Origin: Flavobacterium segetis | GTDB taxonomy: Bacteria > Bacteroidota > Bacteroidia > Flavobacteriales > Flavobacteriaceae | Assembly: GCF_900129575.1 (NCBI RefSeq) | Contig: NZ_FQWE01000011.1 | Coordinates: forward strand, 62,001-126,000 | DNA: 64,000 bases | Direction of reading: 5' to 3' | In this document: positions 13,076 to 36,242 of the stretch, one piece after another | How positions within the stretch are numbered: position 1 is the stretch's first letter | How the letters are laid out: every line of letters starts with the position of its first letter | Program-made: the position numbers and the translations under genes | The notes under the pieces: model-generated | What the model saw: the letters and a program-made list of their open reading frames with translations, nothing else | What the model was told of the DNA's origin: nothing | The model's database searches: none

Positions 13076-13089
13076 TACTTCCCAATACA
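13075..13089 (+). repeat. Attachment-site direct repeat, distal end (att)
   Basis: The 15 bp TTACTTCCCAATACA are identical, in the same orientation, to 36228-36242, which encodes the last codons of mnmE (CIGK-stop). Integration into the 3' end of mnmE is well known for genomic islands such as SGI1. The pair therefore marks the two ends of an integrated element. Confidence 0.8.
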
Positions 13090-13595: not shown

Positions 13596-13612
13596 TTTTC
13601 AAGTTTTAAGTA

Positions 13613-15025: not shown

Positions 15026-15934
15026 TTAAAGTATAGGATTATACATAGACGTTTTACCATTTGATTCTCGTCCTGTTTTATGGCAATAATTCTCTTTATA
15101 ATTCCAATTCTCAAAATTAGCCCAAGAACGATATGCCTCAAAACAGTATGGTTTTTTAACGTCAAATGGAATTTGTTGTCCAGTTCTTATGCAGAATCCT
15201 AAGTCTACTTGCTCATTCCTATAATTGGGGTTGCTTTTGCTTTTGTTTGTATAGTAGGAATATTGTTTCTTTTCTACAATTTTATCCTCGGGAATAAATT
15301 CTGCTCTTGATGGTTTGTCGTCAGATTCCAACAATTCAAGATCAAAATCTTGATAGTATTTTTTTTCGAAATGGCTGTTTCGATATAACGCATCGGTCAT
15401 ATCATATAGAACTTTTGATTCTACGTACTTTTTCGATAAACCAAGATTAGTCTTTTTAAAAATTGGTCGCCTCATAAATACAACTGGATTGTCTAAAATA
15501 ACGCCATTTGTATAGCTAAGTGAATCGACATATAGTTTGTCTAAATTGATGATTTTAGAATTTTGAAAGGAAATGCCATACTCCACATTGCCTGTCATCG
15601 ATTTGCCTAAAAGGTTTAATGAAGTCAATAAAGCTTCGCTTTCATTAGCATAATATTTTGCATGTAGATTGCTGCAATAGATGATGGTTATGTTGCTAAA
15701 CTCTTTAAATAGCTCTAAGTCAGAGGGTGTTAAACTTCTTTGCGTTTCTCCCTCATTTTTACCAAAAACGATTATAATTTCCAGTTCGGGATTGTTTTTT
15801 AATTTCTTGAAGATGCTTTTACAATAATCATCAAGTCTTATAAAAGGGGAGAGAATTATTAGTTCTTTTTTTGCTTCCCATATGATATCAGTTAGTTTTT
15901 CGTCTAACGCTGTGCCTGTAAAAAATTCTGCCAT
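15026..15934 (-). CDS. PLD-family nuclease-like protein with C-terminal cysteine motif
   Basis: The 302-residue protein has an N-terminal phospholipase-D-like domain: KKELIILSPFIRLDD, LEIIIVFGKN, and the HKD-type motif with H91, K93 and downstream S105/N107 (LHAKYYANESEALLTSLNLLG). One HKD copy implies action as a dimer, as in bacterial PLD nucleases. The C-terminal 60 residues hold LGFCIRTGQQIPF, PYCFEAY and ENYCHKTGRES, a likely zinc-binding module. It is the last gene of the seven-gene run and starts 46 bp after the DUF262 gene. A nuclease or DNA-end role is inferred. Confidence 0.8.
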   Translation of the reverse strand: MAEFFTGTALDEKLTDIIWEAKKELIILSPFIRLDDYCKSIFKKLKNNPELEIIIVFGKNEGETQRSLTPSDLELFKEFSNITIIYCSNLHAKYYANESEALLTSLNLLGKSMTGNVEYGISFQNSKIINLDKLYVDSLSYTNGVILDNPVVFMRRPIFKKTNLGLSKKYVESKVLYDMTDALYRNSHFEKKYYQDFDLELLESDDKPSRAEFIPEDKIVEKKQYSYYTNKSKSNPNYRNEQVDLGFCIRTGQQIPFDVKKPYCFEAYRSWANFENWNYKENYCHKTGRESNGKTSMYNPIL

Positions 15935-15980
15935 TATAAAATATAATTTTTATATGTTGTACTGTTGGATTACTAATCTA

Positions 15981-17675
15981 TTACGCTTCGTCAAAAAGTT
16001 CTTCTGTATCTTCATAAACTTCAAGTTCTACAGTTGATATTTCTTGAGGAATAATTAACTTATTTAATGCTTTAGTAATTCTTGATAATCTATTTTTGTA
16101 GAAAGTATCGTAATCATTATCCCAGATACCATCTTTATTGATGTCAATAAAATGTGTTTTCATGGTTTCTTCTAATTCATCATTGGTAGAATTAAAAGAC
16201 TTCATGTAATTAGCAGGACTTTTTGCCTTAATTATATTTTTATTTAAAAAACCATCTACAATTGTAATATTGACAATATGGTTCACGTAGTAGTAATCTA
16301 AATCTTTTCTATTTTTTGACAGCCATGATTTTGGGAAAAAGTGATGATAGTTTTTACTGGTCGCAATTTTAAGCCAGCTATTATCTATAATTACATCAAG
16401 GTTGTTATCAAATGATTTTGGTTTTTGTTTCGCATATAAGCACAAAATGGCTTTGTTGAAAGATTTTCCTGTACTAAACCAACCATTTGCCTCAACAAAT
16501 TCTTTATTCACAAGAACTTTCCATTCATATCTTGGTAATTCATTCGCAATAATTTTGTCAATTTTAGAAATATCTTGAACTAACTTACCTTCAACACCTG
16601 ACGAATATCTGAAGCCCAATGATACTCTCCAAAAAAAGTCTTCTAATCTTTTTTTCATGTCTCCCGTAGGGTTGTGTTTATTCTTGTAATAGAAATAACT
16701 GAAAGGCACAAGCAAAGCATTGTATGGTAAAATTCTACCAACAACAATACCGTAGCTTCTAAAAAAATCAATACTACTTTTAATACAACTTACTGCTTCA
16801 TCCCAAATATTTATGAATGCTATTTTGTCTAATTTTAAAATTGTTTTTCTAGTGCAATCCTTTTCTAATAAAATTGAAATGACTTGTAGAATTGTAGCAG
16901 ATGGGATAGTATCATAATGACTAGCGCTTAGTTCAGTAGAAAGCTCTTCATATTTTACTGATAAATCAAATATTTTTTCTGGTGACTCTAATTCACTTTT
17001 GTTTTCAAATATATGATATGTTTTTGCTACCATAATTTCAAATAAAGATAATGATTTGCCTCCTACATTTAACCTTGTAAAGACTTCAGTAGCTACATCA
17101 ATCTGAGCGTTTTTTAGATTAATTACTGAAAATGTATAATTAGAAAGAACATTTTTATAGTGATCTAATTTTTCGTGGAATTCCTCGGGATAATTTTTGA
17201 AGATGGAGAAACCACCCTTCATCAAGTCTGTAATCTTAATTAAATGTTCTGGTTGTAAACTATCTATTTCAGTCGTAACTATATCCTGTTCGTCGATAGC
17301 CAACAGGTTTACATAAATTTCTGAATAATCTGAAGTTTTACCATCCTCTTCTCCAATTTTAACTCCTTTTAAGGCAGCATATAATGAAGTCAAACGTTGT
17401 TGACCATCTAAAACATAATTTACAAATTCTCCGAACTTAGGTTCTGGTAAAACTATGTTACCAAGATTACGAACTGATCTTAATCGTTCGTTTGTTCTCC
17501 AATAAATAAAAGTTCCAATTGGATATCCTTCAATAATACTATCTAATAATTTGGCTGAATCTTTAATGTTCCAAACAAACTTTCTTTGAAATTGTGGTAT
17601 TTTAACTTGACCCGTTTCTATTTCACTAAGAAGGTCTGTGTATTTAACAGATATATTTTGTAGTGATGTACTCAT
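15981..17675 (-). CDS. DUF262 (GmrSD-like) protein with C-terminal HNH-type motif
   Basis: The 564 residues start with a DUF262 ParB-like domain: KIPQFQRKFVW (about 25-35), GYPIGTFIYWR and DGQQRLTSL (90-98). Near residue 445 lies YHHFFPKSWL with a downstream N-rich stretch, like the DUF1524/HNH nuclease end of GmrD and relatives. GmrSD cuts glucosylated phage DNA in an NTP-dependent way; other DUF262 proteins are also antiphage nucleases. It starts 6 bp after the ATPase gene, so it is probably expressed with it. The exact substrate is unknown. Confidence 0.88.
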   Translation of the reverse strand: MSTSLQNISVKYTDLLSEIETGQVKIPQFQRKFVWNIKDSAKLLDSIIEGYPIGTFIYWRTNERLRSVRNLGNIVLPEPKFGEFVNYVLDGQQRLTSLYAALKGVKIGEEDGKTSDYSEIYVNLLAIDEQDIVTTEIDSLQPEHLIKITDLMKGGFSIFKNYPEEFHEKLDHYKNVLSNYTFSVINLKNAQIDVATEVFTRLNVGGKSLSLFEIMVAKTYHIFENKSELESPEKIFDLSVKYEELSTELSASHYDTIPSATILQVISILLEKDCTRKTILKLDKIAFINIWDEAVSCIKSSIDFFRSYGIVVGRILPYNALLVPFSYFYYKNKHNPTGDMKKRLEDFFWRVSLGFRYSSGVEGKLVQDISKIDKIIANELPRYEWKVLVNKEFVEANGWFSTGKSFNKAILCLYAKQKPKSFDNNLDVIIDNSWLKIATSKNYHHFFPKSWLSKNRKDLDYYYVNHIVNITIVDGFLNKNIIKAKSPANYMKSFNSTNDELEETMKTHFIDINKDGIWDNDYDTFYKNRLSRITKALNKLIIPQEISTVELEVYEDTEELFDEA

Positions 17676-17681
17676 CTAATT

Positions 17682-20009
17682 TTATTGTTTTAAATTACTC
17701 AAATCTATTCTTGTTGAATCTATATCAAACTTCTTAAATTTATATCTCAAGTATGTAGACATTGAATGTTCATGGGTAGAAAACACAATTTGTCTATCAC
17801 TGAAATCATTTCTAAGAACTTCAACAAATCCAGCAGTATTTATATCGTCCATAGATTGAACTGGATCATCAATAAGTAGTAATTTACTTTTTGAATATTT
17901 TTTATTTAATGCTAGTGTAAATGATAAGACAAGAGCAGATAATTGACCTGTACTCATTGAAAAAACAGCATCATATGTTTTTTCTGGTGTCGTTACAAAT
18001 TTCACTCTATCTCCACGATTAATAATAAATAAACCTAAGCCCCCTTGAAAATCTTGGACTATCCTACCACTGTAAATATGAAACAAAACTTCAATATCTT
18101 TAATAAGCTGACTATTATACCAAGAAAGACTATTATTCATGATACCTAAAATGTTTTTAATTTTTTCAAATGGTATCAATAATTTTTCCTGTTTTTGTCT
18201 TAATAAATTTAATTCTTCTTTTTTCAATTTTAACAAGCTACTTTGAAATAAAGAATATGACCATTCAATATATTTTCTTTTATTATCAATCATCTTAAGA
18301 GATAAATCATCTAAATTAACTCTTTTGGAATCAAAATAATGGCTGTAATATTCTGCATAATATGGTTGAATTGCACTTACATCATAATCTTCCAATTTAA
18401 ATTTTAAACTCTCTATAAAACTTTCGATATTCCCATCATATTCATTTTTAACTTCACTTAAAATAAATTTAGAATAATCGAAATCAAAATCATGTAAATC
18501 TAATTTCAAGAGCGATAAACTTCTTTTAGAAGCTAAATCAAAAAAATCATCTTCAAAAAATTCTGATTTATATAAAAAACCAGATAATATAGCATCAACT
18601 TCTTCTAATAAAGTCTCTGAAGTAAATTGAATAAAACTTTCAAGGTTTTCTTTTAATGTTTGATCAATATCCTTATTCAATTGTTCAAAATCATCTTTTT
18701 GTTTTTCAATATTTTTAATTAATTCAATATTTGTTTCCCAATCATAACCACAAAATGGACAAATACCGTCTTCTTTAAGTTTATTATGATATTCTATTAA
18801 ATGTTCACTTAACTTATTTTTCGTTGTTATTAAGTTTGCAATAATTTTTGAAGATTGATTAGAACTAGATAAATACGTTTTAAGAATTTTTAATTTACTG
18901 ACATATGCACCAACTATTTCATTTCCGTCAAGTTTGCTAAGTATTAATTCCGGCAAATCATAAGTATCTTTCAAAATCTCATCAATTTGAAAAGATTCAA
19001 ACTTAATTTTAAATTTATTAAAAGAATTAATAATGTTTTTTTGAATTAGGATTTCTTCCTCACTATCTCTAAAATGCTCATATTTTAATAATGATACTAT
19101 AAGACTCTCTTTACTTACTATTTCACTTATTTTAGAATTATTAACTTCTGCAAGGAAATCGTTTTTATCTTTTATAAACTTTTCAAGTCTAAATACAGTC
19201 CCATCTTCTTCTCCAAAAATCTCATTGTAACATATACTATTAAAATCAATCTCATCCTTATCCCAAATAAAATCCTTATTTTCAAATAATTTTTCATAAC
19301 TAACCCCATCAATTGGCTTAAAAGATTCTTCAAGACTAAATATTATTTCTACAGAATCCTCAATCTTTTTGGTTAACCCGTTTTCCCCATTTAATAAATT
19401 ATTAATTTTATTAGAGACTTTATTAATACGTTCTATTTCATTATCAAATTCGCTTGTATTAAAAAGATAACTAATTCCATCTTTTTTATCTCTTTCGCTT
19501 GATTTTAAATAATAAAATGTTTCTTCTTGTTCTACGTAATTTACAAATTGAAAATCATTTTTATAATTATTTCCTAAAATAGATCTCAAATAATCTTCTG
19601 AAACTAAATTTGAATCTTCAATTGATTCATCAAAATCTGTTAATTTATGAAGTTTAAAGTGAGAAAAATCAATTTTTGTTTCTACTATATTTGAATTTTT
19701 TCTAGCTAAAACATGTTGAACTCCATTAAATTCGATAAGAGCCTTTATAATAATGGGAGAACCATCTCCATCCGAATGATAGAATGGATTTTCCTTTCTT
19801 TTTTCTCTTTTATCATTTAGAATTACCGTTGCTTTTTCATATCTCCTAATTTTACCGGTAAAGAGTAATTCTAAAGCATCATATAATGAAGTCTTTCCAA
19901 AACCATTTGGACCATCTAAAACGACCAAACTATTACCTTCAAAATCAAAAGGTTGATTTTTGTAGATTTTGAAGTTTTGTATTTCAATTTTTTTTATCCT
20001 AATTCCCAT
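17682..20009 (-). CDS. SMC/Rad50-like ATPase of an ABC-three-component system
   Basis: The 775-residue protein has Walker A GPNGFGKT at 33-40, long coiled coils broken by a zinc hook CPFCGYDW near 416-423, an ABC signature MSTGQLSALVLS, Walker B KLLLIDDPVQSMDD and the histidine switch STHEHS. This is the RecF/SMC/Rad50 arrangement. It overlaps the middle-component gene by 11 bp. In ABC-3C systems the ATPase is thought to sense invading nucleic acid and license an effector through the middle component. The residue order is intact, so it should bind and hydrolyse ATP. Confidence 0.88.
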   Translation of the reverse strand: MGIRIKKIEIQNFKIYKNQPFDFEGNSLVVLDGPNGFGKTSLYDALELLFTGKIRRYEKATVILNDKREKRKENPFYHSDGDGSPIIIKALIEFNGVQHVLARKNSNIVETKIDFSHFKLHKLTDFDESIEDSNLVSEDYLRSILGNNYKNDFQFVNYVEQEETFYYLKSSERDKKDGISYLFNTSEFDNEIERINKVSNKINNLLNGENGLTKKIEDSVEIIFSLEESFKPIDGVSYEKLFENKDFIWDKDEIDFNSICYNEIFGEEDGTVFRLEKFIKDKNDFLAEVNNSKISEIVSKESLIVSLLKYEHFRDSEEEILIQKNIINSFNKFKIKFESFQIDEILKDTYDLPELILSKLDGNEIVGAYVSKLKILKTYLSSSNQSSKIIANLITTKNKLSEHLIEYHNKLKEDGICPFCGYDWETNIELIKNIEKQKDDFEQLNKDIDQTLKENLESFIQFTSETLLEEVDAILSGFLYKSEFFEDDFFDLASKRSLSLLKLDLHDFDFDYSKFILSEVKNEYDGNIESFIESLKFKLEDYDVSAIQPYYAEYYSHYFDSKRVNLDDLSLKMIDNKRKYIEWSYSLFQSSLLKLKKEELNLLRQKQEKLLIPFEKIKNILGIMNNSLSWYNSQLIKDIEVLFHIYSGRIVQDFQGGLGLFIINRGDRVKFVTTPEKTYDAVFSMSTGQLSALVLSFTLALNKKYSKSKLLLIDDPVQSMDDINTAGFVEVLRNDFSDRQIVFSTHEHSMSTYLRYKFKKFDIDSTRIDLSNLKQ

Positions 20010-20691
20010 TATCCTTATTGAAATTTAACAACTCGATTAGTTCATCTTCATTTATTTTATCTAAATTTTCTATTACTTCCTCTATAAAAGCCTCATTAAA
20101 TGAATCAAAAAAATCAGTTAGATTTTTTCTCTTAATTTCATCCTTTGATTTTACATAAAGATTTTCTAAATTTTGATTAATTGCCACATTTATTTTTAGA
20201 AAAGGAAGTTTATGAGCAATATTATAAAGTAGGTTATGCCATGAATGATTTTGATGAGTGTCTTTGTATTCATTGAAAATATTTTCATCAACAAGTAAAT
20301 TCAAGAGCTTTTCTGAATTATCATTTTCAATTTTGGCTTTTAGATTACCTAAAGAATCATCCGTATATGTTAAAACATATTTTTTAAATTGAAAAGGGTC
20401 TTCTTCGATCTTAAAAACATGTTGTTTTGCAATATCAAAATCTTCTCGTTTATAAATTATTAATAATGAAGTATTTTTATCAAAATCTTTATCGTTAATT
20501 TTTTTTTTGCATTCTTCAAACCAAACATCTTGGAAAGCCAATATTAACTCACTGTCAAAAACTTCCACTTCAATAATTAGCCAGTAATAACGAATATTAC
20601 TGTCAACATCTTTAAAGAATAAATTATATTTGCCGATGTCAATTTTTTCAAAATTGTGATAATTAAAAAGATTATTTATTATTTCTTTCAT
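19999..20691 (-). CDS. ABC-three-component system middle component
   Basis: This 230-residue protein overlaps both neighbours (4 bp with the effector gene, 11 bp with the ATPase gene), which indicates translational coupling. It resembles ABC-3C middle component type 1, including YNLFFKDVDSNIRYYWLIIEVE and EEDPFQFKKYVLTYTDD. It has no visible enzyme motif. In the described systems this part links the ATPase to the effector. The family call rests on motif memory and gene order. Confidence 0.65.
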   Translation of the reverse strand: MKEIINNLFNYHNFEKIDIGKYNLFFKDVDSNIRYYWLIIEVEVFDSELILAFQDVWFEECKKKINDKDFDKNTSLLIIYKREDFDIAKQHVFKIEEDPFQFKKYVLTYTDDSLGNLKAKIENDNSEKLLNLLVDENIFNEYKDTHQNHSWHNLLYNIAHKLPFLKINVAINQNLENLYVKSKDEIKRKNLTDFFDSFNEAFIEEVIENLDKINEDELIELLNFNKDNGN

Positions 20692-21974
20692 CGTAATATT
20701 TTTTTTGCAGTTTCAATTTTGACCATCCCAACTTTTGACCATTTAGTGATATTATTTTTTCTATCATCCTCGTCTGATACTTTCATTTGACTATTCAATC
20801 CATTTTCAATTAAATCTATTTCTAAATCCTTTGTTATTAAAAAATCAGATTGATAAGCTATCTCAAAATTATTATCAATGATATTTTCGTAGATTTTTTT
20901 ACACACTTTTTTTATATCGTTTTGGGGTGTATATATCGCAGTTGCAGTATATCTTTTTGAATTTATACAACTCCACATTAAACCCTTTTTGATATTAAAT
21001 GTAGGCTCTATTAGCTCAAACAAACATTTCAAAAATGCATTTTTGAACTCATCCTGCCCAATATTATTGTCTTTAAAATCAAAAAGCGTATTCAATTTAA
21101 ATTCTCTGTGAGGCATTAAGTTTTTTATAAAACTTATTAACTCTGTTTTATCAAGAGAATTTATTTCAAGTAAGTGAACATCCAGTTTTATTCTTTGAGC
21201 CTCTGTTAATACAACACCTTCATCATTTAATTCTTCTTCTAATTCTAAAGCAAACTCACTGTAATATTTATTAATGAGTTTTTTAGTAATATTTAAATAA
21301 TACTTTTCATCTGCAATTTTATTATTTAAATCTTCATTCAATAAAATTATAAAGTTATCAAATGGAATTGTAAAATAATAAGCTGCTTCATTAAGTCTTA
21401 AACCGTTTCTTCTATGATTACATGCATGGATAGCAATTATTTGACTTACAATAATGTCTTCTAAACAATTTCTAACTATTTGGATATAGTTTTGATTATT
21501 AAATTGATTTAAATTATTTGCTACAAAATAACTCGAAATTAAATTTTCAATTCTTTGATCTATAGTGTTTAGAGAACAATAGGCATCTCCTTCTCTATAT
21601 TCATAAATATCTATAGTTCCGTGAATTGCTTTGATTTGAGCTTTAGATTTTTCATTTTGAATTGCCAAATGGAAATATGCACCATTGCATGAATACCTAA
21701 CTAATCTTTCTTCTAATTTTATGAATGCGGCTACATAAGAATTATATAAATGAGTTCCTAATGCTTTAACTTGGTGAAGAGATATAGCTTTAATATCCTC
21801 ATCTACTATTGCAAAATCTTCCAACGAATCTAATTGTAAATGATATTTAACTGATTGAGGCTCTTCAATTAGTAATCTCAGCACATGATATAAAGCTACC
21901 TTACCTTGATAAATAAAACCACTCCAACTATCAGCAGCTGAATCAATTTTTTCTGGATCTATAAATATTGCCAT
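20688..21974 (-). CDS. ABC-3C effector with N-terminal PD-(D/E)xK-like nuclease domain
   Basis: The 428-residue protein opens with SAADSWSGFIYQGKVALYHVLRLL, the helix found at the front of DUF4297/Cap4-like nucleases and ABC-3C effectors. L51-E52-D53 and H67-Q68-V69-K70 fit the D...QxK active site of the PD-(D/E)xK fold. The rest is helical and would carry the ABC-3C C-terminal domain. It starts 15 bp after mod, placing it in one transcript with the type III R-M genes. I infer a DNA-cutting effector released on infection. Confidence 0.72.
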   Translation of the reverse strand: MAIFIDPEKIDSAADSWSGFIYQGKVALYHVLRLLIEEPQSVKYHLQLDSLEDFAIVDEDIKAISLHQVKALGTHLYNSYVAAFIKLEERLVRYSCNGAYFHLAIQNEKSKAQIKAIHGTIDIYEYREGDAYCSLNTIDQRIENLISSYFVANNLNQFNNQNYIQIVRNCLEDIIVSQIIAIHACNHRRNGLRLNEAAYYFTIPFDNFIILLNEDLNNKIADEKYYLNITKKLINKYYSEFALELEEELNDEGVVLTEAQRIKLDVHLLEINSLDKTELISFIKNLMPHREFKLNTLFDFKDNNIGQDEFKNAFLKCLFELIEPTFNIKKGLMWSCINSKRYTATAIYTPQNDIKKVCKKIYENIIDNNFEIAYQSDFLITKDLEIDLIENGLNSQMKVSDEDDRKNNITKWSKVGMVKIETAKKILR

Positions 21975-21989
21975 TTCTAAATATTGGTA

Positions 21990-23915
21990 TTAAAACGCAT
22001 TAAATTTATCCCCTAAATAATGCTTCAAATTATATTTTTTGGTAGTATCTAAAGCTCTTTCTAAACAAATGAATTTCTGCTCCGTATTGGTTTTAAAATA
22101 TTCGACAGTATCTAAATCAATACTAACATCTAAACAAATTAGGGTTTCTTTTTCATCATCAAAAGCCAAAATAATCTCGTTCTTTGTGAATTGGGTCTGT
22201 ACTGTCGTTTTGTAATTTAATGAGAAGTTATTTTTAAGCAATATCTCCGTCATAAGCTCTTCTTTATTGAAGGCATTGACTAACTGACTTTCTTTATCGG
22301 CAATATATTTTTTTAGTAATGCTAAATTTTCTGCATCTGATAATTCTGGATCAGGAGCAAACTCCACTCTTGGAAAATTTGATTTTTGGAGTTTGAAAAC
22401 TTTGAAACCTAGATTTGACTTTTGATTTGTATAATTTTCAAACTGCTCAGCAACCTCATTCAGTTGTAATTCGCCTTCTTTTTTTCTAGCTTTTTCGGCT
22501 TTCTCATTTTCTATTTTGGTAACTACTCTTTTGTTGCGTTCAATGGTAATATCACTAATTTTTTTATATCCATCATTATATGCTTCACTTTTAGTATCTA
22601 TTACTTCAGGAATTTGAATTAAAATAAATTTACGTTTTTCATTATCCTTATTCAATTCCAAGACTGCTTGTCCAGTTGACCCTGAACCTGCAAAAAAGTC
22701 TAAAATGGTATCATTTTCTCCCGTTACTTGACTAATTAATTCTTCAATTAGAGAAGGTGGTTTTGGGAAATCAAATGCCTTATAACTAAACAGATCATCA
22801 ACTTCTTTTGTACCATCTCTTGTAAAGATGTTTTCTCCAATAATTGAAGAAAACCCAGTAAAACTATCTGATAATTCATTAAGAAACACTTTCCTCCTAG
22901 GTCTTCCTTCAATAGAATTTGGCCATAAAATTCTATCTTCATCAATAAGCCTGCTCATAGTTTTCATGTCATATCTCCAACCCATTTTAGGTTTCCCATA
23001 ATTAATTCTAGTATTAGGGTTTATTAAATCATAATGACAATTCGGTCTGAGATTTTCTGGCAAAATTCCGACCATATTTCCACTTGCCCAGTCACCTCTG
23101 GGATCTAAATCAGGATTAGTGTATTGTTCAACTTTTCGTTCGCTACCTTTTAAAGCTTTGCTTTCGTTATTTTTTGAATAGCATATAATATATTCATGAT
23201 CAATTGATGCGCCTGTTACTGTTCTATTATCTTTATTTTGTCTTGATTTCCAAATAAAATTTGCTACAAAATTTTCCTCTCCAAAAACTTCATTACATAG
23301 CTTTCCTAAATGATGTATTTCATTGTCATCTATAGAAATGAAAATCACACCATCTTCACGTAATAATTGTCTTGCAATTAACAAACGAGAATACATCATA
23401 TTTAACCAATTGGAATGATAACGACCATCGGTTTCTGCATTGGTGTCAATTTTTACTCCATTTTCTATTACTTCTGCATCTTCCCAATATCCTTTTTTAT
23501 CTTGGGTAAAGTTATCACTGTATACGAAATCTTTTCCTGTATTGTATGGAGGGTCTATGTAAATGCACTTTATTTTTTCACGATAGCTACCACTTAATAG
23601 TTTTAGTACTTCTAGGTTTTCGCCTTCAATAATTAGGTTTTCGCTATTCTCAGGATTTACACTACGGGCTTCATCATAAACTAATGTAGCATTACTTGGT
23701 GTAAAAGCGTTGCGCTTGGCTTGGCTTTTGCCAAACCAACGGAATTCATAACGTTCGGTTTCATTAACCGTATCAGGATTAACTGCTTTTTTTACCTCGT
23801 CAATATTTAGATTTCCTTCACTGGTAAACCAATCGGGAAATTGTTGTTTTAAAATTTGTAAACGCTCTTTATTCCAATCGTTACTTAAAGGCATATAATC
23901 GTTAATGGATTCCAT
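21990..23915 (-). CDS. mod: Type III restriction-modification methyltransferase (Mod)
   Basis: The 641-residue protein has DPPY at 121-124 (IYIDPPYNTGKDFVYSDNF) before the SAM motif DFFAGSGSTGQAV near 406-412, the order of beta-class adenine-N6 methylases such as EcoP15I Mod. The variable target domain lies between them (about 240-370). Mod sets the asymmetric target and methylates one strand; with Res it also restricts. Unusually it follows res instead of leading the operon. The 133-bp gap upstream holds a bulged hairpin. Confidence 0.94.
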   Translation of the reverse strand: MESINDYMPLSNDWNKERLQILKQQFPDWFTSEGNLNIDEVKKAVNPDTVNETERYEFRWFGKSQAKRNAFTPSNATLVYDEARSVNPENSENLIIEGENLEVLKLLSGSYREKIKCIYIDPPYNTGKDFVYSDNFTQDKKGYWEDAEVIENGVKIDTNAETDGRYHSNWLNMMYSRLLIARQLLREDGVIFISIDDNEIHHLGKLCNEVFGEENFVANFIWKSRQNKDNRTVTGASIDHEYIICYSKNNESKALKGSERKVEQYTNPDLDPRGDWASGNMVGILPENLRPNCHYDLINPNTRINYGKPKMGWRYDMKTMSRLIDEDRILWPNSIEGRPRRKVFLNELSDSFTGFSSIIGENIFTRDGTKEVDDLFSYKAFDFPKPPSLIEELISQVTGENDTILDFFAGSGSTGQAVLELNKDNEKRKFILIQIPEVIDTKSEAYNDGYKKISDITIERNKRVVTKIENEKAEKARKKEGELQLNEVAEQFENYTNQKSNLGFKVFKLQKSNFPRVEFAPDPELSDAENLALLKKYIADKESQLVNAFNKEELMTEILLKNNFSLNYKTTVQTQFTKNEIILAFDDEKETLICLDVSIDLDTVEYFKTNTEQKFICLERALDTTKKYNLKHYLGDKFNAF

Positions 23916-24048
23916 TTGAGTGAGTTTATTTATTTAATTGCAATTTTTAAATTTTTTATTGCTATTGTAATTTTCCTGATACAGGGAAAATAGATTTACT
24001 ATTATTGTTTTATTGTTTTACTACAGTAAGTAAAAGAATTATATTTTA
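23916..24048 (-). other. res-mod spacer with bulged hairpin
   Basis: The spacer contains ATTTTCCTG and CAGGGAAAAT around ATA, a hairpin with one bulged base. It might be a partial terminator or processing site that sets the Res to Mod ratio. No promoter with TAnnTTTG was found on the minus strand. Confidence 0.4.
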
Positions 24049-26748
24049 TTAGTTTGCATTAATACTATTATCAGCAAGTGTTTTAAAATATTTGTATTCT
24101 TTTACAGGAGCTTTGTATTGTACTTCTAATCCTAATTTTTGGAAGTGTTTCATCGCGCATCGTATTTTGTAAATTTCACTTTCTTTAAGTGCTTTTTTAT
24201 CATTAATATCGTTTGTCCCTTTTGTTTCAATCACAAAATAGAATTCGCTTTCACTTCCGCTTTTTAAACTTTTACGTTTCATTACTAAGCCAAAATCTGG
24301 TTCGTAATTACCAATTGGCGTTTTTATTTTGTACCAACTCGGTAATTTAAGAAAACAAACTACCTCTGCATCTTTATCAGCATCTAATGAAAAATTTCTT
24401 TCTACATCACTATCTACAAGCATTTTATCAAATACTCCTTTATGTGGTGTTTCAACATATCCCTCTTTAGAAATATTCTTTATAAAATCAGTAAAATCAA
24501 AAGGATAACTCTCGCCCGTAATTTGGTAATCTAAACCTCTAATCATTTCATTTAGTTCCACATCACGAATAATAACTGAAGCTTCATGAATAAATCGAGG
24601 TGGGTTTTTTATCATTTGATCTAAATTATGTAAACGACTAATAATCTTAAATAACGTATTGTAACTGACTCCTGTGTTCTCACTTATTTCCTCAATTAAA
24701 TCTAAAGGCGTAAAAGTTGATTTTTGTATTACCTTTTCTGAACCTTGAAAAGTATCGTTCTGACCTTCTTCTGTAATTTCATTGATCAAGAAACTGGATG
24801 CTTCAATAACAAAATCAGGTATTTCAATTTTATTAATTCTCTCCGCAGATTCCGCAATCAAATTATCCTCATCAAATGACATGGTGTATTCCGTTTTTTG
24901 CGCTAAAGCGGTCCAATATTTTCTAAAAGCTTGTTCGATTTCACTAGAAGTATTACGCTTGAAACTTACTTCATCAGCTGGAATTCCTTTATGAGAATGT
25001 GACATTCCAGCACCTGCATTTGTTGAACCATAAACCGATTTTATTTCTTCTTGATACTGCGTAACAAATGTTTCGTAGGTTTCATTTGGGATTACAGTTA
25101 GCTGATTGATTCTATCGCTTTCAGCTACATTTAAAGCATCATATACTCTTTGTCCGTCTTGGTTTACACAAATACGCAAACCACGCCCAATCTCTTGGCG
25201 TTTTTTAATTTCGGAGTAGGAATTATTTAGAGTTGCAATATTAAAAACATTCGGATTATCCCAACCCACACCCAAAGCAGAATGTGAAAAAACAAATTGT
25301 ACCGGATTTGAAATGGTTAAAAGCTCTTCTTTTCCTTTTAATATTAAATCATAAATTTTACTTTGTTCTTTTACACCGCCTTCATTATCTGCATATTCTC
25401 CAGAATTTTTTTGAGCAAAATAATATCCTTGTACTGCTTGAATTTCTTCACTTGAAGGAATCTTTCCGCCATAATATTCAGGATATATTTCTTTATATTT
25501 TTTAACAAATATGTTTTTAATAATGGGTGTTTCGCCTACATAATTAGATACTCTGTCAATAAAGATCAATGACAAACATTTTATATTTTTTTCTAAAAGT
25601 CTTTGTGTTTTAGCAAAATGTCGGTGAAGTAACCATTCTATTTGCAGTGCCCAAATATTTTCTAAACTTCCTGCTATTTGTTTTTCTAAAACTTCAGCTC
25701 CATTAGTAAAAACTACAGTCCACTTTTGTGTTTTTAAGCTTTTATTTATTCTGGATATTTTATAATTTAGATAACTAGGATTGTTGGTTTTGTCTCCTAA
25801 ATTATCTCCTTCTTTTAACCAAGCCGTATTTTTAAAATCAATCTTCCCGTTTGAATTATTAAGATGCCAAGCTTTTAGTTTCACTTTTGGGTCTCCTTTA
25901 CCAATTTGAATATCTGTTAATTCTATTTTCAAAGAAGCTTCATCATTCTTTTCGGTAACTGTAAGTACTTCAATTTTCTTTACCAATCCGTCTTTATAAC
26001 TATCAAAAGGTGTTAATCTAAACAAGAGGTTTTTAATCACTTTATGTGTTGCTGAATAACGAAGTTTTATTAAAGGATTAAGTTTTGCAATTTGTTTTAT
26101 GGAATTATCCGTATCCATTCCTTCCTGAGGTTCATCCATGATGATGATTGGATTTGTTTTACCAATTGCCTCAATGAACGGGATATTATTGAACAAGTCT
26201 TCGCGTTGCGCCTGATTTAGAATTTTGTCTTCTGAATTAAAAGAAGCTAAGGTCATTATCATAACCTGCGGATGCTGGTCTTCTATAAACTGTGTAACCT
26301 TTGTAAGTTTTTTACTGTCATATTCAAAAGCACTTGGAGTGAAGCCGTATATATCCTCAAGCTGTTTATCAAATGATTTGAAAGTACCGATTATGTTTTG
26401 TCTTATAGCTACTGATGGAACTAATATTATAAACTTAGTAAAGCCGTAATGTTTAAAAAGTTCATATATGGTTTTCACGTAAACCAATGTTTTTCCTGTT
26501 CCAGTTTCCATCTCAACACAAATATCTTTATCTGAGGAAAGGTTTGCCACATCTTGATTTACTCCATTTTCAAAGCAAATATTTTTAATACTCTCCTGAA
26601 CTTCCTCTTTAGATAATCGAGATACATTGGATCGAATACCTTCAAAACAAGCACTATCAAATGTGTTTTTTTCTGTTCCTTCAAAAACTTTTACAATTGA
26701 TTGAACGGCTATGTCTTGATATATAAGGTTTTCTAGTTTTAGTTTCAT
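24049..26748 (-). CDS. res: Type III restriction endonuclease subunit (Res)
   Basis: The 899-residue protein has the SF2 helicase core: Walker A TGTGKT at 82-87, DEPQ near 205 (IIMDEPQEGMD), SATH motif III (LRYSATHK), and motif VI EIGRGLRICVNQ. The C-terminal nuclease has YEPDFGLVMKR and FYFVIETKGT, the PD...ExK active site. Res translocates or diffuses on DNA and cuts when two head-to-head sites meet. It is the first gene of the seven-gene run. Confidence 0.95.
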   Translation of the reverse strand: MKLKLENLIYQDIAVQSIVKVFEGTEKNTFDSACFEGIRSNVSRLSKEEVQESIKNICFENGVNQDVANLSSDKDICVEMETGTGKTLVYVKTIYELFKHYGFTKFIILVPSVAIRQNIIGTFKSFDKQLEDIYGFTPSAFEYDSKKLTKVTQFIEDQHPQVMIMTLASFNSEDKILNQAQREDLFNNIPFIEAIGKTNPIIIMDEPQEGMDTDNSIKQIAKLNPLIKLRYSATHKVIKNLLFRLTPFDSYKDGLVKKIEVLTVTEKNDEASLKIELTDIQIGKGDPKVKLKAWHLNNSNGKIDFKNTAWLKEGDNLGDKTNNPSYLNYKISRINKSLKTQKWTVVFTNGAEVLEKQIAGSLENIWALQIEWLLHRHFAKTQRLLEKNIKCLSLIFIDRVSNYVGETPIIKNIFVKKYKEIYPEYYGGKIPSSEEIQAVQGYYFAQKNSGEYADNEGGVKEQSKIYDLILKGKEELLTISNPVQFVFSHSALGVGWDNPNVFNIATLNNSYSEIKKRQEIGRGLRICVNQDGQRVYDALNVAESDRINQLTVIPNETYETFVTQYQEEIKSVYGSTNAGAGMSHSHKGIPADEVSFKRNTSSEIEQAFRKYWTALAQKTEYTMSFDEDNLIAESAERINKIEIPDFVIEASSFLINEITEEGQNDTFQGSEKVIQKSTFTPLDLIEEISENTGVSYNTLFKIISRLHNLDQMIKNPPRFIHEASVIIRDVELNEMIRGLDYQITGESYPFDFTDFIKNISKEGYVETPHKGVFDKMLVDSDVERNFSLDADKDAEVVCFLKLPSWYKIKTPIGNYEPDFGLVMKRKSLKSGSESEFYFVIETKGTNDINDKKALKESEIYKIRCAMKHFQKLGLEVQYKAPVKEYKYFKTLADNSINAN

Positions 26749-28687: not shown

Positions 28688-29278
28688 TTATAGAAGTTTG
28701 GTTAAAACTTCTGTGGTCAGGTTGTCAATTTGTTTTTGAGCATTTTTATCATTTGTAACCCCTTTTAAGAGTACTGATCGGGTAAAAGCAACCAAATCGC
28801 TAATATGTGTGTTAGCGATTTTTACGTCGTATTCGGCAAGACCGATTAAAATATCTAGTGTCAAAGTCGTGTTTGGTTTAATCATATTGAAAACGACTAT
28901 AGTATCGCCTGTTCTCTGTTCTTGCTCAATAAGACTTAGGGTGCTTTTTATTGCTAGTAAGTCTAGTATTCCCGCCTTGGTTGGCACAATAATCAAATCA
29001 GCCATCGCAATCAATTTTGGCAAATGATTTGATAGGTAGGGAGGAGTGTCGATAAAAATAAAATCGTAAACCAACTCCGGAATACTCTCCAATTTTCCTT
29101 GGTATGGAATAATTTCAAAATCACTAACCAATTCCTTTAACTGGCTCAAGCTTCCCTGTAAGTCAAAATCTAATACGGCAACTTTGGCACTAGAAGCTAT
29201 ATTTTGCGCAAGATTAAAGGTCAGCGTACTTTTACCAACTCCCCCCTTTTGGTGTGTTATTAATATTATTTTTGCCAT
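28688..29278 (-). CDS. parA: ParA-family partition ATPase
   Basis: The 196-residue protein has the deviant Walker A KGGVGKST near residue 11 (LITHQKGGVGKSTLTFNLAQN), Walker A' VAVLDFDLQGS and Walker B YDFIFIDTPP. The short length fits type Ib plasmid ParA proteins without an N-terminal HTH. It starts 3 bp after mobB. A partition pair suggests the element spends time as a replicating circle. Confidence 0.92.
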   Translation of the reverse strand: MAKIILITHQKGGVGKSTLTFNLAQNIASSAKVAVLDFDLQGSLSQLKELVSDFEIIPYQGKLESIPELVYDFIFIDTPPYLSNHLPKLIAMADLIIVPTKAGILDLLAIKSTLSLIEQEQRTGDTIVVFNMIKPNTTLTLDILIGLAEYDVKIANTHISDLVAFTRSVLLKGVTNDKNAQKQIDNLTTEVLTKLL

Positions 29279-29281
29279 TTT

Positions 29282-30187
29282 TTAGCGTTTTATACGGTTT
29301 AATTTTTTGACTATTGTGTTTTCCTGTTCTTTAATTAAAACATGATTTTTAAGACGGGTATTAAGTTCAAATTTTTCTTGAGGGCTGCCGTTTTTCAAAA
29401 TGTTTTGATTCTTAAATTTTTCTAGTTCAGGTCTTTTGTATTTAAAGTGCTCATCGAATGTTTTTTCATTCAGATCAATCCATTTTACTCTATCAAATCC
29501 TACTTGATAGTTGTTGTCGCCTATGGTTCTCTTAGTTAGTGTTTCATTGCAAGTAGGGCTTAATTTTAATTTTTGGGTTTTGTCTTTTCTGGATACAATG
29601 ATGTGCACGTGAGATTGCAGTCCTTTTTTATAAGTACCCGAGATTTTGTTTCCATTAATTACTTCCTTATCAGTGCCTTTAAATTTTCTGAAATGTTCAA
29701 TTTTTGCGAAGTATACTAAATCACTTCCAGATTTTATTCCCTTATCTTGACGATTAAAATTAAGTGCATAATTGTCCATGATTTTTCGGGCATATTCTCG
29801 AATAAGCCTGTTAAATTCATTTAGCTGATCTACGTTTAATTCCCAGACGTTTGAAACATCTTCTTGACCAGTTGCCAAATATGCAATATGATCCAATTCA
29901 TTCTCGCTAAAACTAATTGTTGGTGCAAAATATTTAGCATCGTTAGCACCTAGTTTTCGTTTATTATTGTCAATAGAACTTATTACTTCGATTGTACTAA
30001 TATTGGTATCTGAATCTGAAAAAAAACCTTGTTTTCTGCTTTCTAGATTTTGGCGTTCACTAATTGAAATGGCTTTTACTGCAAGTTTATCCAAATCTTC
30101 ATTTTCTTTCTCTAGATATAAAGCTAGGTTAGAACAGCTACCTTTATTATTTGCTCCTAGCGTACTATGGGGTTTGGAAATCGGCAT
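29282..30187 (-). CDS. mobB: MobB / DUF5712-type mobilisation relaxase
   Basis: The 301-residue protein starts MPISKPHSTLGANNKGSCSNLALYLEKEN, the opening of Bacteroidota MobB (DUF5712) proteins, and has the histidine-rich SHVHIIVSRKD motif expected for metal binding in relaxases. Such proteins nick at oriT with the help of a BfmA/BtgA-type partner. Its start touches the stop of the upstream partner gene. Confidence 0.85.
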   Translation of the reverse strand: MPISKPHSTLGANNKGSCSNLALYLEKENEDLDKLAVKAISISERQNLESRKQGFFSDSDTNISTIEVISSIDNNKRKLGANDAKYFAPTISFSENELDHIAYLATGQEDVSNVWELNVDQLNEFNRLIREYARKIMDNYALNFNRQDKGIKSGSDLVYFAKIEHFRKFKGTDKEVINGNKISGTYKKGLQSHVHIIVSRKDKTQKLKLSPTCNETLTKRTIGDNNYQVGFDRVKWIDLNEKTFDEHFKYKRPELEKFKNQNILKNGSPQEKFELNTRLKNHVLIKEQENTIVKKLNRIKR

Positions 30188-30705
30188 TAGGAAAAAATAG
30201 ATTTAATTTTATCCAATGCACCCGACTTGTTTTTGTCATCAATCAATTGGCAAAGAACAATAATTGCTTGCCTGTTTTTCTCTAGTTCAGAATTCATCAG
30301 TTTTGTTCTTGAATTATCATTGCTATTAATCAGATTGAAATTTTCTAAATGATTTTTCTTTATTTCTGCAGTTCTTACAGAATGTTGATTAAGTATTTTA
30401 TTAATAGCAGTAATCAGGTTTGCATTATCGTCTTTCTGTATTTTTTGATATTCAAAGACATCTTGGCGCAATGGTTTCAAAATATCACGTTCTTGTACTT
30501 TTAAGAAGGAAACTATTCTTTTGTCTAAAGCAGAAACCATCAGAGCAGGATTTTTATTAACGGCATCTTTTGGGTCAATTCCTGTTTTTTTGAAATAATA
30601 AATCATTTCTTGAACTAAACTTCCGTAATTCATTTTTAAGCTTTCTGCTAATTTTGTTAATTCTGAATGAGCTTTTGGATCTATAATTATGCTTTTTTTT
30701 GTCAT
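30187..30705 (-). CDS. BfmA/BtgA-family mobilisation accessory protein
   Basis: The 172-residue protein starts with a ribbon-helix-helix-like segment (SIIIDPKAHSELTKLAESLKMNYGSLVQEMIYYFKKTGI) followed by long coiled helices, matching BfmA/BtgA proteins of Bacteroides mobilisable elements. It probably binds oriT and guides the relaxase. It lies immediately downstream of the hairpin pair at 30793-30867. Confidence 0.8.
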   Translation of the reverse strand: MTKKSIIIDPKAHSELTKLAESLKMNYGSLVQEMIYYFKKTGIDPKDAVNKNPALMVSALDKRIVSFLKVQERDILKPLRQDVFEYQKIQKDDNANLITAINKILNQHSVRTAEIKKNHLENFNLINSNDNSRTKLMNSELEKNRQAIIVLCQLIDDKNKSGALDKIKSIFS

Positions 30706-30792: not shown

Positions 30793-30867
30793 GAACCCTT
30801 GCTTTTAAAGGGTTCAGCCTCGCAGAGCAAGTAGGACAGGGGGACCTTCGCCCCTGTCCTACTTGCT
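30793..30867. other. Candidate origin of transfer (two adjacent hairpins)
   Basis: The first hairpin pairs GAACCCTT (30793-30800) with AAGGGTTC (30808-30815). The second is a perfect 17-bp stem (30826-30842 with 30851-30867) with an 8-nt loop, far stronger than anything nearby. The repeat GCTATCCTTTC occurs twice just after it. Location directly upstream of the mobilisation genes fits oriT. The strong stem could instead act as a terminator for the upstream gene. Confidence 0.55.
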
Positions 30868-30876
30868 ATCCTTTCG

Positions 30877-31929
30877 CTATCCTTTCGGAAACAAGGAGAT
30901 GGTATTTCCTTGTAGATCTGTTAAGTCAAAAAGATTGATTAGGATTTTTAAATTTTTATTTTTCAAGTATAGTTTGTTAACTATTTTTTGTTGGTTTGAA
31001 ACAATAGCTTTTGGAACGTATTTAATGTTTTTTAAAAAATAGTCGGCGATATCATAGCCGTTTTCTCTTTCTATATTTGTTCCATTACGTTCTAATAAAT
31101 CTGAAATTTCTATATCAAAACCTATCTTTTTAAAGTACTCGCATTTTGAATTCCATATGCTAAATGGACTTCCGTTTAATCCGTTTATACCTAAATCGGG
31201 GTATAGAATAATTCTTCGATTTCGCAATACTTCCATTTTAAAGTCATTTAAACCATTCAAACTACCTGCTGCTAGCCAAGTGTATTTTTTGAATAACATG
31301 CTCATAATACAAGCTGTTTTTTCAGATTCTACTATGGCAACAATAGTGTTGCAATTATTAATTAAATGCTCTCCAAAAAAACATTGACTGAGAATGAAAG
31401 CATTTATTTGGTTAGATTTTATTTTTATCGAATGAATCCAGTTTATGTACTTCGTCCTTTTTCCGGATGTATTGTAAATAATTACTTTTCCACCTCTAAT
31501 TTTATGTTTCGAATCAACTTGCCAGAACACCGTACCGAAATTCCAGAAATTGGCTGTTCCAACTTTATATTCAGCAAGCATTATTTCTACCTCTTGAATA
31601 TCAAATTTTGATTTTAAGAATTGAACAAAATTGTTTTCGTTGTAGTACATTAATGTGTTTACTAATTCTTCTTCGTCGTGAATCGAAATTTCCACTTGTT
31701 GAACAGATAATTGACGAGCTTTAGTAGTCGAAACATATTCCTTATTGTTATCATTAAAATATGACCTAGGGGAGTAGTGGTAACCACAATTTATTTCTCT
31801 ATCACATCTACCAACTTGGGGCGAAATATATTCTTCTGAATCTACATCTATATAAAGCACAAGTGCTTTTTTCTCACAATTGGGACAGTAATGTTTTGTC
31901 GATTTTTTGTGTAATGAGTATTTATACAT
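30877..31929 (-). CDS. DUF6371-type protein with zinc ribbon and toprim-like domain
   Basis: The 350-residue protein opens with YCPNCEKKALVLYIDV...GRCDREINCGYH, a zinc ribbon like that of DnaG-type primases. The middle has VAIVESEKTACIMSMLF and RIILYPDLGINGLNG, which resemble the glutamate and D-x-D parts of a toprim domain. It probably assists replication of the excised element, together with the DUF3987 protein encoded upstream. The family assignment is by pattern. Confidence 0.7.
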   Translation of the reverse strand: MYKYSLHKKSTKHYCPNCEKKALVLYIDVDSEEYISPQVGRCDREINCGYHYSPRSYFNDNNKEYVSTTKARQLSVQQVEISIHDEEELVNTLMYYNENNFVQFLKSKFDIQEVEIMLAEYKVGTANFWNFGTVFWQVDSKHKIRGGKVIIYNTSGKRTKYINWIHSIKIKSNQINAFILSQCFFGEHLINNCNTIVAIVESEKTACIMSMLFKKYTWLAAGSLNGLNDFKMEVLRNRRIILYPDLGINGLNGSPFSIWNSKCEYFKKIGFDIEISDLLERNGTNIERENGYDIADYFLKNIKYVPKAIVSNQQKIVNKLYLKNKNLKILINLFDLTDLQGNTISLFPKG

Positions 31930-31943
31930 AATTTATTGTATTG

Positions 31944-32149
31944 CACTTTCTTCACTTTCTTCACTTTTCAGTAACGATAGGGCTTTAGAGTAAGTTTTGT
32001 TCTTCACTATGGCTTCATTTTGACTTCACTTTGCAAATTGAAAGTGAAATACAAATTGCACTTTCTTCACTAATTTTGCACTTTGAGTGATTTTTATATA
32101 TCTATAAACCAATGCGTTAGCTATTAAAGTGAAGAAAGTGAAGAAAGTG
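31944..32149. repeat. Iteron-like CACTTT/AAAGTG array
   Basis: Ten copies of CACTTT or its complement lie in 206 bp. Three direct copies at 9-bp period (31944, 31953, 31962) face three inverted copies at the same period (32126, 32135, 32144), giving perfect 24-bp inverted repeats at the two ends. Others lie at 32027, 32041, 32059 and 32079. The array fills the gap between the DUF3987 and DUF6371 genes and is a candidate replication origin. Confidence 0.85.
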
Positions 32150-32153
32150 AAGC

Positions 32154-33590
32154 CTATATAGTTTTCTCATAACTTCCATGAGCTACTCTTTTGAATAATT
32201 TTAGATCCTTTAAGTAGGTTTTGAACTGTCTGTCAGAAATCCTAGGCTTTCCATCAATTAGCTTGCAAGCTATTTTAATTCCTTCGGCAGTTGTAAACGT
32301 TTTGGGCAGTTCGTTTAAAATATTTTTTTGACCTTCAGTGAGCGTTTCGAAGTAATTCGTCCTCATAATTTCAGTTCTAACCTGAACAGCATTATGATAG
32401 AAATAATCAAATAATTTAATAGCACTCATTACAGAATGCATCGATATTGTATTTATTGACTTATTTTCTATGGTTGAATGGATCAATTCAAGAATCATTG
32501 CAAAACGCAAAACGTACTGCTGGAGCTTGATCTCGATTGATCGCTCAAAATCAAAGAAAAATTTGTCTGGTCTATGGTTTTGCCAGCGGAATAGAAACTC
32601 TTTTGCTTCTCTCTCCATAGGAATTACGATTGATACATTAGGATCTTCGTCGCCTAATTCAAGTAGATTATGGATCAATGTAGTGTAATTATCCACTAAT
32701 ACTTTGTTGAGAGATTCGATGTTCCACCGTAGTATTTTTTCTTCATTGGGGTAAACAAACAGCAAACGATCCATAAAACCATTGGTTGATCTTCCATCTT
32801 TTCCAAAGTCCTTTAAAACGGATATTTGAGTACTTCCAATAACACTTAAGCAAGGGTCTGAAAGTCTTTGGCTTTTGCCTGAAGCTCTATCTGTTGTAAT
32901 TGGAGTTCCGCTCCATAAACTCAAATAGGTCTCTGCTTCACCAGAACTGTTGTAGCGATTGAAGTTTTTTAACCAGCCATTAAGTTCATCCACAAATACA
33001 CATAGCGATCTTTTGTTATTAGAATGATGCAGAATTAAGGCTTCTGGTGTAAAATCACTCAGTAAATATCGTTTCAGTATCGGTTTCTTTTCCTTGAGCT
33101 TATTTTCAGAACTGTCTGAGATACTTTTTTCATATTCATTTAATTGATTCTCATATTCTGTAAAAAGTTGGTTTTTTTATTTTATTTGAATAGGATTGTA
33201 ACAAAATTTTAAAGCTTGGGTTTTGGCATCACCTGGTTGACCAACTATCACCATAAATAAGTTTACTTTTTCTTCCCAACCATTTTTTTTCACTTCAATT
33301 TTATATGATTTACCAATTGAAGTTGCGGCAGCTGAAAGTATACCGGAGCCTAGATAATCTATGGGGAATACTTGCTTATTATGAATCTCAATTATGATCT
33401 CTTGTATGGCTTTCGGATAAATATCTATTGGGAATAAGTTTCCTTTAGTTTCTTTGTGTTTCAAAAAGTCTAATTCAAGATCAACTAGATCGATTACTCC
33501 TTGATTTTTACTATCTTTGTTTTGCAGATCAAAGATTTTGCCCTTTCTACTTTCTGAAGTGGAAGGGGCATTGTTTTTTAAATCAAGCAT
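32154..33590 (-). pseudogene. DUF3987 helicase-like protein with one in-frame stop
   Basis: A 479-codon frame from ATG 33590 is interrupted by a single TAA at 33177-33179 (context YNPIQIK-stop-KNQLFTEYENQLNEYE). No shift occurs. The N-terminal part has a Walker-A-like GQPGDAKTQAL; the later part has LCVFVDELNGWLKNFNRYNSSGEAE and CLSVIGSTQI, typical of DUF3987 proteins of Bacteroidota mobile elements. A restart at GTG 32993 would lack the P-loop. It may be a recent nonsense allele. Confidence 0.82.
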
Positions 33591-33592
33591 AA

Positions 33593-33877
33593 CTATTTCT
33601 TATTGGTGATATAGTTAATAGCTTCTTTTTCGATTTGAGAAATCGACTTTGATTTGTTTTGAAGTAACCATTCGTCTATTTCTGCTTTAGTAAAAAATAG
33701 AGTACGATTATTTGGTTTCGAATACGGGATTATGTTGTTATGTACAAGTTTATATACATAGGATTTTGAGAAGCCGGTATAGTTTACAACATCATCTACC
33801 GTGAAGATTTGTTTGTTGGTCCCAATTATAAGTTTTTCTAATTGGGTTAATTTTTGAATGATCGCATTGCTTTCCAT
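33593..33877 (-). CDS. Excisionase-like helix-turn-helix protein
   Basis: The 94-residue protein carries FTVDDVVNYTGFSKSYVYKLVHNNIIPYSKPNNRTLFFTKAEIDEWLLQNK, a MerR-like HTH_17 domain of the Xis type. It starts the replication/mobilisation run and its stop is 2 bp before the DUF3987 start. It may control excision or transcription of the element. Confidence 0.85.
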   Translation of the reverse strand: MESNAIIQKLTQLEKLIIGTNKQIFTVDDVVNYTGFSKSYVYKLVHNNIIPYSKPNNRTLFFTKAEIDEWLLQNKSKSISQIEKEAINYITNKK

Positions 33878-36227: not shown

Positions 36228-36242
36228 TTACTTCCCAATACA
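36228..36242 (+). repeat. Attachment-site direct repeat, mnmE end (att)
   Basis: This copy is the last four codons and stop of mnmE (TGT ATT GGG AAG TAA on the minus strand). It is identical to 13075-13089 in the same orientation. mnmE remains intact after insertion, as expected for recombination at a gene 3' end. Confidence 0.8.

Follow-up and report, generated by a model that had tools for sequence, protein, structure and literature searches.

An iteron origin directly downstream of a helicase gene is known from SaPIs, and a putative one downstream of a helicase gene from SCCmec. The C-terminal domain of SaPI Rep reads iterons that directly follow its own gene, where two hexamers appear to bind, and in SCCmec, AAGTG iterons lie downstream of the gene for Cch2, the isolated C-terminal domain of which binds them (both as described in PMC7581432). 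SGI1, an integrative mobilizable element at trmE (mnmE), replicates when excised and has an iteron oriV downstream of rep (PMC7433901). This replication was demonstrated after a passage of a 2017 review had described how integrative mobilizable elements are maintained once excised as ‘an unexplored world’, their replication never having been studied (PMC5704250). Vibrio PICMI are phage satellites with int, alpA and a primase gene, for which the published search model uses DUF3987 and DUF5906; the main text of that account is without the word iteron (PMC10803314). Kazlauskas and colleagues predicted a helicase function for DUF3987 in mobile elements, and in the same account suggested that related proteins recognise origins by their C-terminal winged helices (PMC5862659). 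DUF6371 is named in the literature that we searched solely in a gene list of Tn4555, a mobilizable transposon of Bacteroides.

The locus analysed here lies between a DUF3987 gene and a DUF6371 gene of Flavobacterium segetis, within a stretch of 64,000 nucleotides that we refer to as the window. It holds an array of short inverted units that is probably the replication origin of an integrative mobilizable element of about 23 kb at the 3′ end of mnmE, bound by the element’s own DUF3987 helicase. The arrangement resembles SaPI Rep and its origin in having multiple short iterons directly downstream of a helicase gene, a putative C-terminal reader and a separate primase (PMC7581432), but the helicase is DUF3987 rather than DUF927 or D5-type, the putative primase is DUF6371 rather than archaeo-eukaryotic-type, and the element is of a conjugation-mobilised type in Bacteroidota, with opposed arms at 9-bp unit spacing. 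SCCmec likewise has iterons downstream of the helicase gene, bound by the Cch2 C-terminal domain (PMC7581432), whereas Cch2 is a D5/Primase_Cterm helicase that comes with a polymerase-type primase; the likeness of its AAGTG to the AAAGTG of the window is taken as coincidence. SGI1 shares the insertion gene and the mobilizable mode of life but differs in a Rep with a RepA_C domain, four 17-bp iterons and a putative DnaA box, and it is without a helicase-read inverted 9-bp array. Tn4555 comes close in combining DUF6371 with an inverted TGTCCCA array, although its AAA ATPase is of another helicase class (AAA_25/HTH) and its array lies within the 3′ end of the helicase frame. Our literature search, in which subscription papers (SaPI origin, NBU1 excision) were thinly covered, found no description linking DUF3987 with iterons, and papers on the replication of such elements and on DUF3987, judged by title and the start of the abstract, gave no account of the array.

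An inverted array between DUF3987 and DUF6371

Along the minus strand, the gene order is mnmE, a tyrosine integrase, an unknown protein, an AlpA/HTH_17/excisionase-like protein, DUF3987, the array, DUF6371 with a zinc ribbon, a BfmA/BtgA-family protein, a MobB-family relaxase, ParA and cargo. The features are as follows (window positions).

36228 to 36242, no strand: possible att copy 1, the 15 bases that end mnmE with its stop codon
34951 to 36132, minus strand: tyrosine integrase
33593 to 33877, minus strand: HTH_17/AlpA/excisionase-like protein
32154 to 33590, minus strand: DUF3987 gene, putative MCM-like initiator helicase, with an in-frame TAA at 33177 to 33179
32157 to 32336, minus strand: final 60 DUF3987 codons, predicted winged helix and putative array reader (from the model of locus L004)
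32126 to 32149, no strand: arm beside DUF3987, three AAAGTG on the plus strand, exact inverse of the DUF6371-side arm
32079 to 32084, plus strand: inner unit CACTTT
32059 to 32064, plus strand: inner unit CACTTT
32041 to 32046, minus strand: inner unit, AAAGTG on the plus strand
32027 to 32032, plus strand: inner unit CACTTT
31944 to 31967, no strand: arm beside DUF6371, three CACTTT at a 9-bp period in plus-strand sense
30877 to 31929, minus strand: Zn_ribbon_16 and DUF6371 gene, inferred putative primase
30187 to 30705, minus strand: BfmA/BtgA-family mobilization protein
29282 to 30187, minus strand: DUF5712/MobB-family relaxase
28688 to 29278, minus strand: ParA-family ATPase
13075 to 13089, no strand: possible att copy 2, the same 15 bases in the same orientation

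The two 24-nt arms are inverted, 100% complementary and separated by 158 nt. Each consists of three CACTTT units at a period of 9 bp, and four units in the spacer bring the total to ten. The array occupies the 224-bp gap between the two genes: one arm lies four bases from the DUF3987 stop codon (32154 to 32156), so that the repeats directly follow the helicase gene, and the other lies 15–38 bp upstream of the DUF6371 start (31929). The sequence-only reading had described just this, namely perfect 24-bp arms of three units flanking four further units, placed exactly between DUF3987 and DUF6371 genes on a ParA-carrying element, and it was accurate on each point.

Among 200 first-order Markov draws modelled on the gap, none had a perfect inverted repeat longer than 16, against 24 observed, and 2000 such draws contained a mean of 0.4 CACTTT units, against 10. 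CACTTT-N3-CACTTT with at most one mismatch occurs four times in the 64-kb window, always within the two arms, compared with a mean of 0.68 and a maximum of 3 in 100 window shuffles. The complete array is single copy in the genome.

Plasmid origins of the Rep_3/RepE kind have direct iterons of about 17–22 bp. The array differs from these in its 9-bp period in opposed arms; its neighbours are DUF3987 and DUF6371, Pfam matches of ten element proteins or fragments include no Rep family, and positions 31901 to 32200 contain no DnaA box (TTWTNCACA). The proposal of a plasmid-type iteron origin is supported once refined: the candidate is a SaPI/SCC-like origin, most likely read by the C-terminal domain of the helicase whose gene it follows, and not the origin of a Rep-initiator plasmid. 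Origins of the SaPI/SCC type have an A+T-rich region flanked by repeats. No such region was found between the arms here, where A+T is 69%, equal to the window (G+C of 31.0% in the spacer against 31.1% in the whole window).

Judged from the integrase, the excisionase-like protein, MobB and BfmA, the element appears to carry an integrative and mobilizable gene set. The last 15 bases of mnmE form a direct repeat, at 13075 and 36228, which points to att sites and to an element length of about 23.2 kb, with a genome-wide E-value of 1.06 for the repeat, that is, about one chance match per genome. An element in Flavobacterium fryxellicola also adjoins mnmE, and its integrase is 87% identical. In a search for an empty att site, mnmE was absent from the loci of five relatives (about 3.3 kb each) that carry the flanking gene.

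The MobB-family relaxase and the BfmA/BtgA-family protein would fit a reading of the array as the nick and relaxosome region of an oriT. We regard this as highly improbable, given that DUF6371 separates the array from the mob genes, that a separate 17-bp inverted repeat lies directly ahead of these genes, and that in the AAA_25 class the array sequence tracks the HTH of the helicase (see below).

The 17-bp inverted repeat (AGCAAGTAGGACAGGGG, perfect, with an 8-nt loop; window 30826 to 30867) sits just past the DUF6371 stop, ahead of the BfmA and MobB genes, and is a candidate oriT or terminator. The region from ParA towards the more distant possible att copy holds cargo (15026 to 26748) that, read by eye from translations, includes a type III restriction-modification-like pair and SMC-like, DUF262-like and PLD-like proteins. 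Two small genes near that att copy (13239 to 13924) resemble a HigB/HigA-type toxin–antitoxin pair by eye.

Conservation in a close relative and at other DUF6371 loci

The closest DUF6371 protein found is from F. fryxellicola (78% identity; locus L004). Its array lies at the identical place, in a gap likewise of 224 bp that aligns without an indel. The sequence-only reading had named related elements with the same genes but without repeats as the finding that would tell against it; this close relative has the array. Window and L004 agree at 52/60 unit positions, 103/164 remaining gap positions (Fisher p 5e-4) and 46/75 fourfold-degenerate sites of DUF6371 (against unit positions, p 1e-3), so units and spacing have been held and the non-unit bases drift at about the silent-site rate. 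All eight changed unit positions are in inner units, and the arm cores are unchanged: the DUF3987-side arm is identical at 24/24 bases, and the DUF6371-side arm keeps its three 6-bp cores with differing spacers.

These comparisons bear on whether the arms pair with each other to form an attenuator or a single-strand priming site, be it in the transcript or in single-stranded DNA during transfer. RNA folding of the 224-bp gap gave a z of -6.2, and the mirrored unit spacers match at 68/123 positions (55%), against 28% predicted by composition; because of these two results a hairpin role keeps a small share of probability, and compact arrays at other loci could fold as well. However, F. fryxellicola keeps the arm cores and its spacer changes are one-sided (CTT against CTG and CTA), a stem would not predict the 9-bp tandem periodicity or the tracking of the HTH, the five Rfam matches to the array are all to microRNA families and under gathering scores, and the array contains no terminator-like site. 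We therefore hold a hairpin to be quite unlikely as the explanation of the array.

The DUF3987 frame is interrupted in the window by the TAA at 33177 to 33179 and open in L004. Between the two, 424/477 aligned residues agree, against 76/133 fourfold sites; the protein has therefore been under constraint, and the stop could be either a sequence error or a sign of recent decay. For the DUF3987 protein of L004, a model built from eight sequences (pLDDT 71.5, pTM 0.72) matched the AAA+ region of MCM helicases with a Z of up to 16.9 (residues 56–409 of the model, rmsd 3.5 over 246 residues). The best 50 structural matches listed were all MCM, CMG or replisome entries, the Foldseek matches listed were of the same kind, and on this model DUF3987 is a putative MCM-like AAA+ helicase. 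Its last 60 residues follow the order of a predicted winged helix: helix (418–426), strand (430–432), helix (433–443), helix (452–462), strand (465–469) and strand (472–475). Single-sequence AlphaFold of the same protein gave no usable fold (pLDDT 33), and sequence search against solved structures returned nothing useful (two weak deubiquitinase matches and 0).

The DUF6371 protein is presumably primase-like, from motifs that we take to be of that kind and from a ‘toprim’ annotation at the equivalent position in L067. To its locus we added 90 others with DUF6371: a genus search supplied 39 (38/199 genomes matched, own included; 46 foreign places, of which 7 fragments or weak ones were dropped) and a family search 51 (53/397 genomes, own included; 55 foreign places, 4 dropped). 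Together with the window and L004, these 92 loci gave 90 distinct usable upstream regions. In the 250 bp that precede the start of DUF6371, exactly matching 6-mers formed 265 pairs at lag 9, against 26 expected (90 regions, 722 control windows), and 96 at lag 18, against 16; lags 7 and 8 were likewise elevated (100 and 67, against 14 and 10). A looser 6-mer scan placed the best or tied site, with at least four copies on both strands, at the junction in 45/90 loci. On inspection, 31 chosen loci have mostly opposed arms with units spaced at 8–9 bp and unit letters that vary among elements, as where three TCGTAANNN and then three NNNTTACGA keep the 9-bp phase without a break; in L084 the units are on one strand alone.

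A per-locus shuffle test (p<0.02; 133 entries, with helicase classes assigned by best BLAST match), which overlooks some arrays visible by eye (for example, in L222), was passed by 36/50 AAA_25/HTH entries, 6/8 other AAA_25 entries, 10/16 DUF3987/HTH entries and 0/4 entries without a class, of which L214 and L228 probably lack one through a wrong reading frame. For related elements at large the answer is divided: most DUF3987/winged-helix entries have an array (23/34, including the window and L004, the DUF6371 neighbour being established for part of the 34), and most entries with a D5-type helicase are without one (3/21 pass). In Tn4555 (L065, CP103138.1, about 1005–1070), the inverted TGTCCCA array sits inside the 3′ end of the AAA ATPase frame, past the HTH codons, and helicase and DUF6371 are 3 bp apart.

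In nine D5-type loci (L069, L091, L092, L095, L098, L131, L134, L136 and L149) DUF6371 either adjoins the helicase gene directly or overlaps it, and no junction array was found. In L101–L105 and L155, a DUF3987 protein with another C-terminal HTH (for example, NKSTISRKW) pairs with GTTGCA units, spaced by eye at about 7 bp instead of 9.

Of 21 Bacteroidaceae DUF3987 loci, 18 were read by eye and enter no statistic. They are mixed: some have GACA or GCAGT-type arrays, L251–L253 have an inverted repeat without clear 9-bp units, L255–L258 and L264 have one-sided units in the stretch shown, and L250 has no array by eye. Among viral contigs, a 20-mer of the array matched 25 stretches, but tblastn (E 1e-5) detected neither DUF3987 nor DUF6371 in any of them, and a DUF6371 query found no relative. 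A DUF3987 alignment found seven loci there, six of which were inspected by eye. In L243 and L245 the DUF3987 gene is followed by CTGCA(C/T)TTT units at 9 bp, L242 and L246 have shorter repeats, and in L247 and L248 no repeats were seen.

Unit sequence and the helicase C terminus

In the AAA_25 class, sequence comparison indicates that the units track the C-terminal HTH of the helicase and not its core. Across 30 AAA_25-type loci (picked by protein length, with 4 removed by hand), helicases that resemble each other in the last 45 residues (taken as the HTH) tend to have similar arrays (rho 0.745, against 0.475 for the helicase core and 0.566 for DUF6371). A partial Mantel test of the HTH given core and DUF6371 gave 0.589, with 0/300 permutations as high, and the corresponding partial correlations of core and DUF6371 with the array are -0.011 and 0.121. 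Over the whole set (77 of the 92 loci), the partial correlations are weak (HTH 0.136, core 0.196, DUF6371 0.181). With array labels assigned by eye, the nearest neighbour predicts the array in 27/29 cases by HTH, 26/29 by core and 20/29 by DUF6371; one label, TCGTAT for L132, follows three of four units.

The relation extends to single residues. In elements with TCGTA-x units, the residue after Val/Ile-Arg accompanies base 6 of the unit: Lys with C (10/10), Gln with T (1/1) and Asn, Ile, Val or Tyr with A (14/14). L088 (VRNWIKK, TCGTAA) and L107 (VRKWIKK, TCGTAC) form a near-minimal pair. The rule was fixed before the wider family search and held in the 3/3 new loci with the motif (L214, L217 and L220), all with Lys and TCGTAC, so that it was tested for Lys alone. 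New loci with other known HTH types also had the expected units, GTTCA in L215 and L221 and GTAAC in L216, L222 and L223.

A quick tree built from the helicase cores, HTH excluded (38 rows, array labels again by eye), contains nine changes of array type, and HTH type agrees with array type in 38/38 labelled rows (by eye); L238, outside the tree, is a likely exception. The contrast of Lys with C recurs in 3/3 independent pairs on this tree (sign test p 0.25). From 28 class-level AAA_25 hits, eight with previously seen HTH types were put on the tree, and seven are fragments, other proteins or hits for which no frame was found. Class-level hits L228, L230, L237, L238 and L240 have TGTCCC-type repeats, no array was seen in L225, L226, L227 and L236, and L229 and L231 are ambiguous. 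The HTH of L238 (SKMKVKRVL) resembles those of TGTTAC elements, yet TGTCCC repeats follow; either it is an exception or it belongs among the SK-x-x-V-x-R helices (L230, L237 and L240) that pair with TGTCCC. CGTCC repeats occur in L218 and L219, with the HTH SHQKADRLLK or SHQKADRLIK.

In L218 and L219, CGTCCGTCCG repeats at a 4-bp period face CGGACGGACG after the AAA_25-type helicase gene.

Because the HTH codons and the array are near neighbours that recombination can exchange together, co-inheritance through linkage explains part of this co-variation. In the DUF3987/winged-helix class the correlation of array and winged helix is not significant (28/32 loci, rho 0.06, 130/500 permutations as high), and for that reason recognition by the C-terminal domain in this class rests on analogy, together with shared position, shared architecture and single cases (L243 and L245). 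The winged helix nearest to that of the window, out of 32 compared, is that of L004, followed by that of L193, with GGCACTTT and GGCATTTT as its units, and that of L084, with units of the CACTTTCGA type.

Co-variation with an HTH indicates recognition at most, not replication, and it would also suit an operator, at which the helicase or the AlpA/HTH_17 protein represses DUF6371 and the mob genes beyond it, or times their transcription, with no origin involved; the position of one arm 15–38 bp upstream of the DUF6371 start agrees with this. Sequence cannot separate the roles of operator and origin. Even so, opposed arms with an indel-free 158-bp spacer appear to exceed what an operator needs, the partner genes are helicase-like and primase-like, the Tn4555 array falls within the helicase coding sequence, at its 3′ end, and the gene strand from 31901 to 32200 contains no Bacteroidota-type TANNTTTG motif. 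On balance, we think an operator unlikely.

A candidate origin and its proposed mechanism

We read the array as the origin of the excised element because of its SaPI/SCCmec-like position beside a gene for a predicted MCM-like fold with a C-terminal winged helix. The array itself, its position, the architecture across elements, the conservation of its footprint and the HTH co-variation of the AAA_25 class are drawn from sequence comparison. We infer binding by DUF3987, two rings, strand opening, priming and replication of the excised form, which could proceed as follows. After excision, the DUF3987 protein would use its C-terminal winged helix to bind the units at their 9-bp spacing, and the two opposed arms would seat two helicase rings that face each other over the 158-bp spacer. 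The spacer would then be opened, the neighbouring DUF6371/zinc-ribbon protein would prime, and a host polymerase would carry out synthesis.

We lean slightly towards a broader proposal, in which the DUF6371 elements of Bacteroidota would form one replicon superfamily: helicases (AAA_25, DUF3987 and some others) would have been exchanged around one primase-like gene, each with an HTH cassette that can be swapped and, moving along with the cassette, the 9-bp inverted iteron array that fits it. If the origin reading is right, Bacteroidota elements, including Tn4555 with its cfxA resistance gene, gain a candidate origin and a candidate initiator. If the superfamily exists as proposed, the residue-to-base code (Lys for C, Gln for T and Asn, Ile, Val or Tyr for A at base 6) would predict origin and incompatibility type from the protein, and the repeated co-exchange of HTH and array would make this DNA-recognition code directly testable.
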